36,962 nucleotides of DNA, taken from contig JAFGRC010000103.1 of assembly GCA_016935355.1 (NCBI GenBank), positions 1 to 36,962 of the forward strand. Direction: 5' to 3'. Shown in pieces: positions 3,969-8,905 of the stretch. This stretch comes from Bacteroidales bacterium. Lineage in GTDB: Bacteria; Bacteroidota; Bacteroidia; Bacteroidales; UBA10428. The position numbers and the translations under genes are program-made. Every line of letters starts with the position of its first letter. Within the stretch, counting starts at the first letter, position 1. The notes beneath the pieces were generated by a model. The model made no database searches. It saw only the letters and a program-made list of their open reading frames with translations, and was not told the DNA's origin.

Positions 3969-4399
3969 CACGGAGTGATAAAACTGGAAGGAGTGAAAAA
4001 ACTGGAAAAAGAAAAGGAAATACTGCAGATCCCGCTTTAGCAGGAACTCCTTGACAAGTCTTAGCCACTTGTTTCAGGAATGTAATACCGGTTCTCCCGA
4101 TGAATATGAGAGCATTGAACAGACTATTTCGCCTTCAGCACTTGTAACAATAACAAACTGGATATTAAAGCTGCGAATGTTGGTTTTATCAACCTGAGAG
4201 ATATCAAAGAAATTAAACAGCTTCATATTAATGAGTTTATTACAATGCAGAACATGTGGTGAATGTTTTTTGATGTCAGTCCGTTTATTGTATGAAAAAT
4301 TCAGCATTTGCACTAATTTCATTAACTTATTACTACTTATTCTTGTGATATTTTATGGAATTTATCTTATATATGCACCTGTATTATAAAACATTTATC

Positions 4400-6292
4400 A
4401 TGAAACCACTCGGTATTTTAATGATTTGCATCATTTGCAACAATTTGTTATCGCAGGAAGTTGCAGAACAAGAAAACAAAACTGAAGTTCAAGAGGTTAC
4501 AGTATTCATCGAAGGTGCCCAGGTTACACGAACAAAAGATGTTGATCTATCCCGGGGAATTACGATCCTGAAGTTTACCGGCCTTTCGCCATTTATTGAT
4601 GCAAAAAGCATTCAGGTTAAAGCTGATGGAGCGGTTACCATAATGGCAGTAAATCATCAGCAGAACTTCCTGAATGCGGTGGAAAAGTCTGCAGAACTCA
4701 CTGCATTAGAAAAGCAACTTAAGAACATTAAGGATGAGATCCTTCTTCAGAATACCCATATCTCAATAGTATCGGAAGAACTTGCATTTCTGCAGGAAAA
4801 CAGGGATATAGGAGGCAGGGATCAGCAAATCAGTGTTGCGAATCTCAGAGAAATATCAAGTTTCTACAACACACAGCTTACTGCTTTAAAGCTTAGGGAA
4901 ATTGAACTTAGCAACAAAGTACATGAGTTGTCACTTCAACAACAGGATATTGAAAATCAAATCAAAACCCTGACAAGCAAAACAGACTATCCTTCCGGGG
5001 AAATTCTGGTTAAGATCGATGCGGAAAAACCCCTGCGGGCAAATATTTCCCTTTCCTATCTGGTGGCCAATGCCAGTTGGTTTCCTTCATATGATATCCG
5101 TGCCGTGAACATCAATGAGCCTGTTCAGGTTATTTATAAAGCGAATGTACGTCAGGATACGAAAGAGAACTGGAACGATGTAAAGTTAAGGTTTTCTTCT
5201 TCCAACCCGAATAAATCGGGAGTGGCACCGGAATTACAAACCTATTATTTAAATTACAATATACTGCCACCGGTTTATGGCAAGAATATCATCAATACGG
5301 TTACCGGAAAGGTCATGAGTTATGCTCAGGAGCCGCTCCCTGGGGTATATATTGTGGTGCAGGGGACTACGATCGGCACAATTACCGATATGAACGGCAA
5401 TTATTCGATAACCGTTCCAAATAATGCCGAATACCTTTCTTATTCATTCGTCGGATACCTGAGCAGGACACTTCCCATCACAAATTCTGTTATGAATGTT
5501 TTTATGGAAGAAGAAATAACAGCTTTGGAGGAGATGGTTGTGACCGGATACGGTGTCCAGAAAAGCAGTGAAGTATCAAATGTTTTGCAGGGCAGAGTCA
5601 CCGGAGTATCAATAGCAGACGATGCAGCGGTCAGAATTCGCGGAACCGGCAGTCTGGAAATACCTGCAGTGCAGGTTGAAAGACAAACCACAGTGGATTT
5701 TGAGATTGAGACTCCCTATACGGTATTATCGGATAATAAGAATTATTCCGTCGATATGGATGTTTATGATCTGGAAGCGATCTACCAGTATTATTGTGTT
5801 CCGAAAATTGACAGGGATGTGTTCCTGATTGCAAAGATCGTTGACTGGGAAAAATATAACCTGCTTGAGGGTGAAGCCAATGTCTTTTTTGAGGATACCT
5901 ATGTGGGAAAGACTTTGCTGGATGTAAGATTTGCGGCTGACACGCTGGATATTTCACTTGGGCGCGATAAGAATGTCAGCGTCAACAGGGAAAAAGTCAG
6001 GGATTATACAACAAGACAGCTTATTGGCAGCAAAAAAGAAGAAACCAGGGACTGGCTCATTTCGATCAAGAACAATAAAAGCCAGAAAATCAACATAGTT
6101 TTACTGGATCAGGTTCCGGTTTCCACCCTGGAAGAAATTGAAGTCGACGTGCAAAATATTTCCGGCGCAAAACGTGATACCGGATCAGGTGAGATCAAAT
6201 GGGAATTCACGCTTGAACCGAATGTTCAGCACGATTTTAACCTGAGATATTCCGTCAAATATCCGAAGAACCGTAACTTGATAATAGAATAA
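4400..6292 (+). CDS. MuiA-like DUF4140/DUF4139 protein with inserted carboxypeptidase-regulatory/TonB-plug-like segment
   Basis: N-terminal DUF4140-like VTVFIEGAQVTRTKDVDLSRGITILKFTGLSPFIDAKSIQV, coiled coil, then DUF4139-like SYLVANASWFPSYDIRAVN...WNDVKLRFSSSNP and a C-terminal half ending ...FNLRYSVKYPKNR. The insert VTGKVMSYAQEPLPGVYIVVQGTTIGTITDMNGNYSI...LEEMVVTGYGVQKSSEVSNVLQGRVTGVSI...VRIRGTGSLE sits in the middle. Signal peptide from the internal Met at 4400. Confidence 0.85.
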   Translation: MKPLGILMICIICNNLLSQEVAEQENKTEVQEVTVFIEGAQVTRTKDVDLSRGITILKFTGLSPFIDAKSIQVKADGAVTIMAVNHQQNFLNAVEKSAELTALEKQLKNIKDEILLQNTHISIVSEELAFLQENRDIGGRDQQISVANLREISSFYNTQLTALKLREIELSNKVHELSLQQQDIENQIKTLTSKTDYPSGEILVKIDAEKPLRANISLSYLVANASWFPSYDIRAVNINEPVQVIYKANVRQDTKENWNDVKLRFSSSNPNKSGVAPELQTYYLNYNILPPVYGKNIINTVTGKVMSYAQEPLPGVYIVVQGTTIGTITDMNGNYSITVPNNAEYLSYSFVGYLSRTLPITNSVMNVFMEEEITALEEMVVTGYGVQKSSEVSNVLQGRVTGVSIADDAAVRIRGTGSLEIPAVQVERQTTVDFEIETPYTVLSDNKNYSVDMDVYDLEAIYQYYCVPKIDRDVFLIAKIVDWEKYNLLEGEANVFFEDTYVGKTLLDVRFAADTLDISLGRDKNVSVNREKVRDYTTRQLIGSKKEETRDWLISIKNNKSQKINIVLLDQVPVSTLEEIEVDVQNISGAKRDTGSGEIKWEFTLEPNVQHDFNLRYSVKYPKNRNLIIE

Positions 6293-6301
6293 CAACCAGC
6301 C

Positions 6302-6329
6302 CCGGTTTCCGGATTTTTGAACCGGTTTT
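6302..6329 (+). terminator. Putative intrinsic terminator after the DUF4139 gene
   Basis: CCGGTT (6302-6307) / AACCGG (6320-6325) stem with 12-nt loop followed by TTTTG, just downstream of the stop at 6292. Confidence 0.4.
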
Positions 6330-6414
6330 GTGAGACCGTAACAAGCGGAAATCTGATTCCTTCGGTATCACATGATTGAGTATAAGAGCATGATCAAACT
6401 GTCCTTTTGAATAA

Positions 6415-6811
6415 TGAAGTTTACAACCGCACTGCTTCAGTTTCTAATTTTGAACGTGGGTTTATGCTATGCGCAAGACAGCGTAATAGAGGATTTTCTG
6501 TTACTGAGCTGACAAAGCAGACTGGAAGATTTTCCGATTGATTGCGGCAAATGGGCCGTTACATCCAACTTTCTTACCGGAATCATAACGGTTACTACCC
6601 TTATACAGAATTTGACAGATTTCCGGGAGAAAGCATTGATCCGAATGTGACTGAAAACCAGCCTATAATTGCAACACTGGCTATCAGACTGCAGATACCG
6701 CCGGGTTATTTGACTTCCGGCGGAATCGGCCCTTATGGTACGGATCCGTTCAGAATGCGACAGGGCACTGTGGAATTTTTTAACGCTCCCAAGTATTGGG
6801 AAAAGCATTGA
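6415..6811 (+). pseudogene. Possible decayed secreted-protein gene
   Basis: ATG at 6415 encodes an apparently intact signal peptide (MKFTTALLQFLILNVGLCYAQDSVIEDFLLLS) that stops at once. A separate ORF at 6542..6811 follows in another frame. No family recognised. Confidence 0.3.
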
Positions 6812-7047
6812 AGAACAAAATAAGAACATCGGGAAATAACCAGATTTGGATTAAAGTGTATTTTTTTGTAATTTGCATGAAATTAAATACCATCCTGCAT
6901 TGAAAGGGTATTAAGTTATAGGTAAAAAGTTGATGGAACCCGCTAAAAAATAAGGGGAAAAACAAGCACACGACTGTTGAAATTACAGGTTGGTCTTATA
7001 AGGATGAATCATTATATCCGTTATTACTAACTAATATATGTATCGTT

Positions 7048-7338
7048 ATGTCAATGTTTAAGAACATTTCCCGACTGGAATGGATCGACCAGTTGATACG
7101 CCAGGAAAAAACCGGTAACCCTCCGGCTTTTGCAAAAAGGATCGGAGTAAGTGTTAGACAGTTGTATAATATTATTGACGAACTGAGGGATTTGGGTTTA
7201 CCTGTTGATTATTGCCGCACCAGGCGTACATTTTATTATCAGACAAATTGCAGGCTGGTGGTTACGATCAGGGTTGAGGAACTGTCCGGAAGTTTACCTG
7301 ATGTTTCGGGTGATCCTCAGAAACGATTCCCGGACTAA
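7048..7338 (+). CDS. Small helix-turn-helix (HTH_11/WYL-N-like) DNA-binding protein
   Basis: 96 aa; LEWIDQLIRQEKTGNPPAFAKRIGVSVRQLYNIIDELRDLGLPVDYCRTRRTFYYQ is a typical small Bacteroidota HTH protein. Confidence 0.65.
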   Translation: MSMFKNISRLEWIDQLIRQEKTGNPPAFAKRIGVSVRQLYNIIDELRDLGLPVDYCRTRRTFYYQTNCRLVVTIRVEELSGSLPDVSGDPQKRFPD

Positions 7339-7501
7339 CAAGCCCTCGGGTGCAGTATCTGGTTTTGTATTTTCAGACGGTTGTTTCATCAGCCGGATTG
7401 TTCTGGCATTAACTCCGAATATCCGTTAAGTGGTCCAAACCTAATTTTAGCAAACAGGATGAACCAGGTAATCAGGAAGTTATATAAAGGGGACCAATTT
7501 G

Positions 7502-7771
7502 TTATCTTAATTTGAATTGTATTAACGTAATAGTTGAGAATGCAAGTAACACGAAAAAGACATAAAAAGGATACCATAAAAATGTCACCGCATTATTAAA
7601 TAAAAATATTATTGACAGTCCGGGGACTGACAGAATCAAGGTAAATAAAGCGGATTTCAAAATATCCCTCATTTGTTTTTCATCATACCAGTCTGTAATC
7701 CTCTCACTGACTTTTATTGAAAGCAAATTAAATAAAGAACAAAGAACAGGGAGTAATAAAAAGGGTGACAA
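7502..7771 (-). CDS. Small hydrophobic membrane protein
   Basis: 89 aa with three probable TM segments (LLLPVLCSLFNLL; LFTLILSVPGLSIIFLF; FLWYPFYVFFVLLAFSTI). No homology recognised. Confidence 0.4.
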   Translation of the reverse strand: MSPFLLLPVLCSLFNLLSIKVSERITDWYDEKQMRDILKSALFTLILSVPGLSIIFLFNNAVTFLWYPFYVFFVLLAFSTITLIQFKLR

Positions 7772-7910
7772 AGTTAATCTTTACATGAGCAAAGGATTTT
7801 CTGCAGGATGTACTTAATATCATTGTATGTTTAAACAATATTAAGTAAATTTCATCACAGGATATTTTTTCAAAGGATATTTTCAATTTATTAACATAAA
7901 ATAAATTATT

Positions 7911-8114
7911 ATGGCTGTACTAAAAGTTATCGAACTGCTTGCATCATCCACGAAAGGATGGGAAGATGCAACACAAATCGCGGTAAAAACCGCAAGCAAA
8001 ACTGTACAAGAAATCCGCTCTGTTTATATTCAGGACATGAGCGCGGTGGTCAAAGATAACAGTGTTATTGAATATAGAGTCAATGCAAAGATTACCTTTG
8101 AGGTAAAGAACTAA
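7911..8114 (+). CDS. Dodecin family protein
   Basis: 67 aa MAVLKVIELLASSTKGWEDATQIAVKTASKTVQEIRSVYIQDMSAVVKDNSVIEYRVNAKITFEVKN has the dodecin length and motif pattern (KVIEL..SS..GWEDA...A...AS.T...I...Y...M.A.V....I.EYRV..KI.FEV). Confidence 0.9.
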   Translation: MAVLKVIELLASSTKGWEDATQIAVKTASKTVQEIRSVYIQDMSAVVKDNSVIEYRVNAKITFEVKN

Positions 8115-8225
8115 ACGATACTATCGCGTTAATGCATCGATTATCCTTGAGGTAAAGCACCGAAGGATACTTTCGCGTCAATACGCAGATTTCCCTTTGA
8201 GATAACGGACAAAAGGACCGGGGAA
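8079..8225 (+). repeat. Three degenerate 49-bp tandem units copying the dodecin 3' end
   Basis: Unit 1 (8079-8127) GTCAATGCAAAGATTACCTTTGAGGTAAAGAACTAAACGATACTATCGC; unit 2 (8128-8176) GTTAATGCATCGATTATCCTTGAGGTAAAGCACCGAAGGATACTTTCGC; unit 3 (from 8177) GTCAATACGCAGATTTCCCTTTGAGATAACGGACAAAAGGAC... (more diverged). Confidence 0.8.
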
Positions 8226-8443
8226 ATAAAGAAATGACAGCTGCAGATCTAAGGAACTAAATGAAAAAAGAGCTGTGGATCTAAAAACTCCAAGACTAAA
8301 ACCCTGCAGATATTATAATAAATTCAGGGATGCAAGAGTTGAAGTATTGTGAAACACAGAAGTTCAATCACCAAAACATTAAAGGACATCTATTAGTAAA
8401 TCAAATACTTATATTGTTTTTCTAACCTTAAATTCATACTATT

Positions 8444-8905
8444 ATGGGATTAATATCATTTATTAAAAACGCAGGAGAGAAGATCTTCAAATCCGAAGAA
8501 AAACGCGAACAGGAAAAAGCCGATCTGATTCTTTCACATATTAAAAAATTTGGCTTTGATACCAGTAACATCAGGGTCGCTGTTGATGACTCAAAAGTCA
8601 CCTTAAGCGGCAAGATTGACACAATGGAAAATAAAAACAAAATTGTTGTTACAGCCGGTAATGTTGAAGGAATTGATACGGTTGACGACAGGATTTATGT
8701 TACAAAACCGGCACCTGTGACTCCTCCTGAGCCTGAAAAGCAGTTTTATACAGTAAAGAAAGGAGATTACCTTTCAAAAATTGCCAAGCAGGTTTATGGA
8801 AATGCCAACAAATACAATATTATCTTTGAGGCAAATAAACCGATGCTGAAAGATCCTGACCTCATATATCCCGGACAGGTTCTGGTTATCCCTCCTTTAA
8901 CCTGA
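8444..8905 (+). CDS. lysM: BON + LysM domain protein (YgaU/Kbp-like)
   Basis: 153 aa; N-terminal BON-like ADLILSHIKKFGFDTSNIRVAVDDSKVTLSGKIDTMENKNKIVVTAGNVEGIDTVDDRI and C-terminal LysM FYTVKKGDYLSKIAKQVYGNANKYNIIFEANKPMLKDPDLIYPGQVLVIP. Confidence 0.92.
   Translation: MGLISFIKNAGEKIFKSEEKREQEKADLILSHIKKFGFDTSNIRVAVDDSKVTLSGKIDTMENKNKIVVTAGNVEGIDTVDDRIYVTKPAPVTPPEPEKQFYTVKKGDYLSKIAKQVYGNANKYNIIFEANKPMLKDPDLIYPGQVLVIPPLT

Follow-up and report, generated by a model that had tools for sequence, protein, structure and literature searches.

The locus studied here raises the question of why a protein of the MuiA family carries, in the middle of its DUF4139 domain, the N-terminal part of a SusC-type receptor. 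The window, that is, the whole stretch of 36,962 nt of contig JAFGRC010000103.1 that was analysed, encodes this MuiA protein (hereafter the window protein) in an open reading frame of 645 aa at 4355-6292 on the plus strand, where all features described below also lie. Its true start is likely Met16 at nt 4400, in agreement with an earlier sequence-only reading. A Sec-type signal sequence, MKPLGILMICIICNNLLSQ, begins there (4400-4453; cleavage site placed by eye, model helix 3-16), and no lipobox was seen in it. The N-terminal MuiA domain DUF4140 (4496-4792; PF13600, residues 48-146, 75.5 bits) is followed by two long helices that resemble a coiled-coil stalk (4691-4975; model helices 98-133 and 146-192 in the 630-aa form). 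DUF4139 comes in two parts, an N-terminal half at 5045-5254 (PF13598 from residue 231; core 217-285 in the 630-aa form) and a C-terminal half at 5684-6289 (PF13598 to residue 638; pLDDT mostly 72-95). DUF4140 and DUF4139 both score above the Pfam cut-off, and the NCBIfam model TIGR02231 (MuiA) gives 267.6 bits against a cut-off of 112.6, which makes the window protein a member of this family. The entire DUF4140-DUF4139 framework is thus common to the window protein and the family; the difference is that the DUF4139 of the window protein is split by a SusC-derived insert of 120-150 residues, whereas many MuiA relatives have only 26-70 residues at this position, mostly unrelated. Pfam reports a single DUF4139 match from residue 231 to 638, which takes in about 150 extra residues in mid-domain. 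Foldseek found no convincing relative of the modelled DUF4139 core in the PDB. The paper on Pseudomonas aeruginosa MuiA concerns alginate and envelope-stress regulation only (PMC10418997). Downstream of the gene, 6293-8443 forms a stretch of about 2.1 kb without an ORF of at least 150 aa, up to a LysM/BON-like gene at 8444; neither this stretch nor the window as a whole contains an Rfam family or a tRNA.

A SusC-type N-terminus inside DUF4139

The insert covers residues 315-434 and consists of a SusC N-terminal extension (NTE), a Ton box and two short plug motifs. The NTE, a CarboxypepD_reg-like domain, lies at 5297-5524, and its Pfam model (CarbopepD_reg_2, PF13715) matches residues 316-396 with 59.5 bits against a cut-off of 32.2. 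The Ton box LEEMVVTGYG follows at 5525-5554 and was matched by a Ton-box matrix; the two motifs of the mini-plug are LQGRVTGVSI (5585-5614) and VRIRGTGSL (5630-5656), and a 14.2-bit match to a plug model spans both. In a phmmer search against the PDB, RagA and SusC homologues were matched by residues 304-431 only. The sequence-only reading had put the insert at 5293-5680, which is accurate, as the NTE begins at 5297 and DUF4139 is back at about 5684, and its central claim of a SusC-style N-terminus in mid-DUF4139 without a barrel was confirmed by the Pfam and NCBIfam domain search. The window protein is not a full SusC/RagA receptor. It scores 98.9 bits with the SusC/RagA model TIGR04056, for which the cut-off is 368.25, and covers just positions 2-94 of 981; Pfam at E<=1 gave no match to Plug (PF07715) or to any barrel family, and DUF4139 follows the insert instead.

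The window protein was modelled with AlphaFold2 (mean pLDDT 78.8), and DUF4140, the helices, DUF4139 and the NTE all come out folded. The top PDB match of this model is 9hfj, the NTE of SusC BT3090 (Foldseek; TM 0.85 by target length, rmsd 1.3), so that the insert holds an NTE of SusC type in both sequence and fold. The Ton box and mini-plug (residues 375-428 in the 630-aa form) have pLDDT below 50 and are predicted to be disordered. Structure prediction, which had been proposed as a check, thus bore out a folded NTE and not a folded mini-plug. The Ton box is therefore predicted to sit on a disordered tether, and the insert has what is found in a Ton-box protein, a Ton-box sequence that is present, conserved and predicted to be exposed. 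SusC/RagA receptors such as Bt1763 and RagA share with the insert the NTE fold, the Ton box (DEVVVTG/GYG) and the short plug motifs. In contrast to them, the window protein has no complete plug and no barrel, is not an outer-membrane transporter, and carries the module internally, not at the N-terminus. STN-domain and Oar-type receptors also have an extra N-terminal domain ahead of the Ton box, as in the insert (PMC7782687, PMC6434023), but unlike the window protein they are true barrel receptors.

Distribution and history of the graft

Our survey of DUF4139 proteins covered 23 genomes from the same family plus a sample of 393 from the phylum Bacteroidota, and 117 full-length proteins were extracted and aligned. 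The loop between the DUF4139 halves is hypervariable, from 26 to 219 residues. The SusC pieces in it are combined in many ways: some loops have an NTE and a Ton box, some a complete plug but no NTE, some short remnants, and in some the order is permuted. Strict SusC motifs, one or more per loop, occur in 55 of the 117 loops, where shuffling would give 0.7, and almost none lies outside the loop. Profile models identified an NTE in 36/117 and a near-complete plug (>70 bits) in 14/117, and a Ton box is present in 42/117; all of these are located in one and the same loop. The Ton box is retained there by 11 of the 81 proteins that have no NTE (0.08 expected). Pfam Plug PF07715 is above cut-off inside seven tested MuiA proteins (L022, L036, L044, L062, L102, L109 and L113), and the paralogues L012, L017, L020 and L022 have a complete plug but no Ton box. 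In many family members the insert loop is lost or unrelated.

We also searched for orthologues with the N-terminal half of DUF4139 only, a query unbiased by the insert. This search turned up 80 named loci in Bacteroidales, Flavobacteriales and Cytophagales, of which 78 proteins were usable. By eye, 75/78 have an NTE and a Ton-box-like sequence. The Ton-box matrix, trained on 44 sites bearing NTE or plug (mostly SusC/TBDT), was passed by 71/78 orthologues; the chance expectation is about 0.1 for these matches and likewise for the 42/117 in the survey loops. Outside the loop it matched 0/78 orthologues and 3/117 survey proteins. The architecture is neither unique nor misassembled: it is widespread across Bacteroidota, and the singular capture event that the sequence-only reading had implied is wrong; a wide distribution was among the findings which that reading had itself named as refuting it, and here it refutes uniqueness. 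Since the window's genome is a draft in 173 contigs, a misassembly or a chimeric gene call at the insert had to be considered. Yet the same architecture recurs in about 100 genomes, many of them unrelated, including one complete chromosome (Formosa sp. L2A11, locus L208, with a Ton box) and several single-contig genomes (L102, L113, L087), and dN/dS between the window protein and its same-genus counterpart L014 is 0.10 for the whole loop, the same as for the core. An assembly artefact is thus refuted, its probability being negligible.

Sequence, fold and trees alike support the capture of a SusC N-terminus. On the core tree, NTE presence takes about eight changes. One capture for all MuiA plugs was rejected in a tree of MuiA and receptor plugs (AU test, p 0.007), and a single plug origin was accepted without L044 (AU p 0.80). 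The MuiA plugs do not form one clade because the L044 plug groups with plugs of its own genome (G039), to which it is 78% and 72% identical, the next best being 49%. These relatives belong to a SusC-like receptor (L174) and a vWA/YfbK protein (L166); three different proteins of this genome thus have closely related plugs, and plug sequence seems to have passed between protein families. One NTE capture for all MuiA proteins was likewise rejected (p 0.017), weakly, as only about 70 columns were available. The plug trees fit one old graft with erosion and at least one re-capture, and the simplest history is an early graft, then repeated erosion and loss, with occasional re-capture. In L065, L067, L069, L076 and L087 the plug motifs and the Ton box occur in permuted order, for which simple erosion of one graft is no explanation. 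Many MuiA loops (L188, L203, L210, L216, L234, L256 and others) have fused plug motifs in the peptide LQGRVAGVxIRGASS, in which the motif spacing is shorter than usual among sampled receptors.

Selection on the insert and a possible TonB contact

Conservation was measured in an alignment of the window protein and 62 orthologues (n=63), which were not picked for the Ton box. Within the insert, conservation is highest in the Ton box, at 3.08 bits/column with an 81% majority residue. The NTE has 2.32 and DUF4139 2.67-3.04 bits/column; plug motifs 1 and 2 have 1.91 and 1.08, and the insert linkers 1.09 and 0.92. Between the window protein and L014, the Ton box and both plug motifs show pN of 0.05-0.09 at pS of 0.54-0.82 (0.05 against 0.65 for motif 1; 0.09 against 0.54 for DDAAVRIRGTGSLEIP, the segment of motif 2), while the short linkers drift with pN of 0.46 and 0.72; few codons enter each of these values. 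Pooled over 18 close pairs, dN/dS is 0.09 for the core, 0.12 for the Ton box, 0.16 for the NTE, 0.30 for plug-motif residues and 0.36 for linkers, with a mild bias as the pairs were picked for having a Ton box, and with synonymous sites partly saturated. By computation, these pooled and conservation values show purifying selection on the Ton box and drift in the linkers. Ton box and NTE are clearly retained by selection, and across the group the constraint on the plug remnants is just slightly above that on the linkers. In Bacteroidota, 'xEVxV' often follows directly on an NTE, so part of the Ton-box conservation could belong to the NTE. The last loop residues before DUF4139, EIPAVQVER (5657-5683), are also strongly constrained in close pairs (dN/dS 0.11).

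That the NTE and Ton box of the insert are homologous to those of SusC and common to orthologues across Bacteroidota is shown by computation. We propose that a SusC-type N-terminus was grafted in long ago, has been maintained by selection and may serve as a TonB-binding tether, a reading to which we give about even chances. On this view the receptor N-terminus was placed in a single variable loop on the surface of a periplasmic MuiA/DUF4139 protein. The exposed Ton box would be bound by the TonB C-terminal domain through beta-augmentation, as in receptors, and the adjoining NTE would perhaps decide which of the cell's several TonB proteins binds; the window's genome encodes five TonB_C proteins that score above the cut-off. 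Contact with TonB could dock, regulate or pull the soluble MuiA protein, with docking, titration or mechanical gating as possible effects, and the mini-plug would be an eroded plug remainder with at most a minor role. TonB contact is the reading that we favour, since no other part of the insert is conserved as strongly as the Ton box; the Ton boxes in survey loops without an NTE and the recurrence of the module on unrelated vWA/YfbK proteins also speak for it. Such contact is plausible and would be the most economical explanation, since the insert presents the same elements as Oar and SusC on a flexible tether in a cell with five TonB_C proteins. In receptors the Ton box lies near the free N-terminus, whereas in the window protein it sits in an internal loop, and this counts against the tether. 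The Ton box cannot be the purpose of every graft, as it is absent from L012, L017, L020 and L022, which have a full plug. Gene neighbours gave no operon clue, as synteny is lineage-specific only and none of it is shared with the window.

Work on receptors shows what these elements do. In the SusC Bt1763 the Ton box is DEVVVTG, and its loss makes the transporter non-functional; NTE deletion abolishes growth on levan, a stronger effect than Ton-box loss, and the authors suggested that the NTE may confer TonB specificity (PMC7782687). For Oar, a two-hybrid assay showed binding of TonB C-terminal domains by a barrel-less N-terminal piece that comprises NTE, Ton box and plug (PMC6434023). In substrate-free SusC-lev, the tyrosine directly behind the Ton box packs on plug and barrel (PMC7618045); this tyrosine is kept in 86% of MuiA Ton boxes, though no barrel is present.

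The same facts can be read otherwise. The NTE may be the working part, binding either a factor in receptor biogenesis or some other partner in the envelope that normally recognises SusC N-termini, with the Ton box as a passenger. The stronger effect of NTE deletion in Bt1763, which may lie in biogenesis (PMC7782687), agrees with this, as do the conservation and low dN/dS of the NTE, but the Ton box exceeds the NTE in conservation, occurs without it in 11 survey proteins, and lies outside the NTE fold both in the NMR structure (PMC7782687) and in the AlphaFold2 model, and we consider this account unlikely. Somewhat less probable still is that the insert is passive debris, in which a permissive loop gathered SusC DNA by recombination from many SusC genes and now decays without function. 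The hypervariable loop, its many fragment combinations, some of them permuted (L065, L067, L069, L087), the re-captured plug of L044 and the fast evolution of some motif-poor loops (L038/L039, dN/dS 0.50) are what debris would look like. The Ton box, constrained like the core and retained in 71/78 orthologues, and the nearly as constrained NTE are not, and for these two parts debris is largely refuted; the linkers may still be debris and, to a lesser degree, so may the mini-plug.

The plug pieces could also act as a mimic that docks in trans with a SusC barrel or competes with its plug, and the sequence-only reading had mentioned a decoy plug. Both plug motifs are kept in the window lineage while the linkers between them drift, and several paralogues have a complete Pfam Plug that is 55-58% identical, compared with 61-63% for their core. 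On the other side, the mini-plug of the window protein lacks most of the plug, is predicted to be disordered and has poorly conserved motifs, and L022, too, has a plug without a confident fold (pLDDT 50-73 at best, in a low-confidence model from 14 sequences). For the window protein the decoy idea is weak, though paralogues with a complete Pfam Plug might act in this way, and we find mimicry quite improbable. SusD binds the extracellular side of the SusC barrel. Since that barrel is absent here, the SusD-like partners that had also been suggested have weak to no support.

The module in other barrel-less proteins

The NTE-Ton box module was also found on vWA/YfbK proteins without a barrel. One is encoded in the window's genome (L133/L274, contig C75; NTE and EEVVVVGYATEKK), and others are L264, L271, L276, L281 and L266. 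L281 has a mini-plug, LAGRVAGVNV, and L266 has a complete plug and an apparent N-terminal membrane segment. These YfbK-type proteins of Bacteroidota resemble the window protein in being barrel-less and in having the module with an eroded or complete plug; they differ in that the host protein is unrelated and the module is N-terminal to the vWA part. The window's genome also encodes a stand-alone 253-aa protein (L149:1360-2118, contig C19) with a signal sequence, an NTE and a plug (PF07715, 40.7 bits), which ends right after the plug. These sequences raise the possibility, which we put forward tentatively, that NTE-Ton box is a portable TonB-docking module on soluble periplasmic proteins such as MuiA and vWA/YfbK and that TonB-ExbBD has non-transporter clients.

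TonB is the motor of outer-membrane import and of one secretion process, via the receptor Oar. If conserved Ton boxes do work on barrel-less periplasmic proteins, TonB would act on, or be titrated or regulated by, other kinds of protein, and this would give a first way in to understanding DUF4139 and the SusC NTE, whose role is unexplained. In the open-access literature we found no publication on a SusC module inside MuiA and no papers on Ton-box or plug modules in barrel-less proteins; the component domains will already be visible through automatic domain annotation. A further barrel-less protein of the window's genome, of 157 aa (L150:1396-1866, contig C30), matches the NTE weakly and carries VNVGYGKVEREKV close to its end. 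Its Ton-box-like stretch reads LVNVGYGKVEREKV, and the ORF that follows it on the same strand is ECF sigma factor-like.
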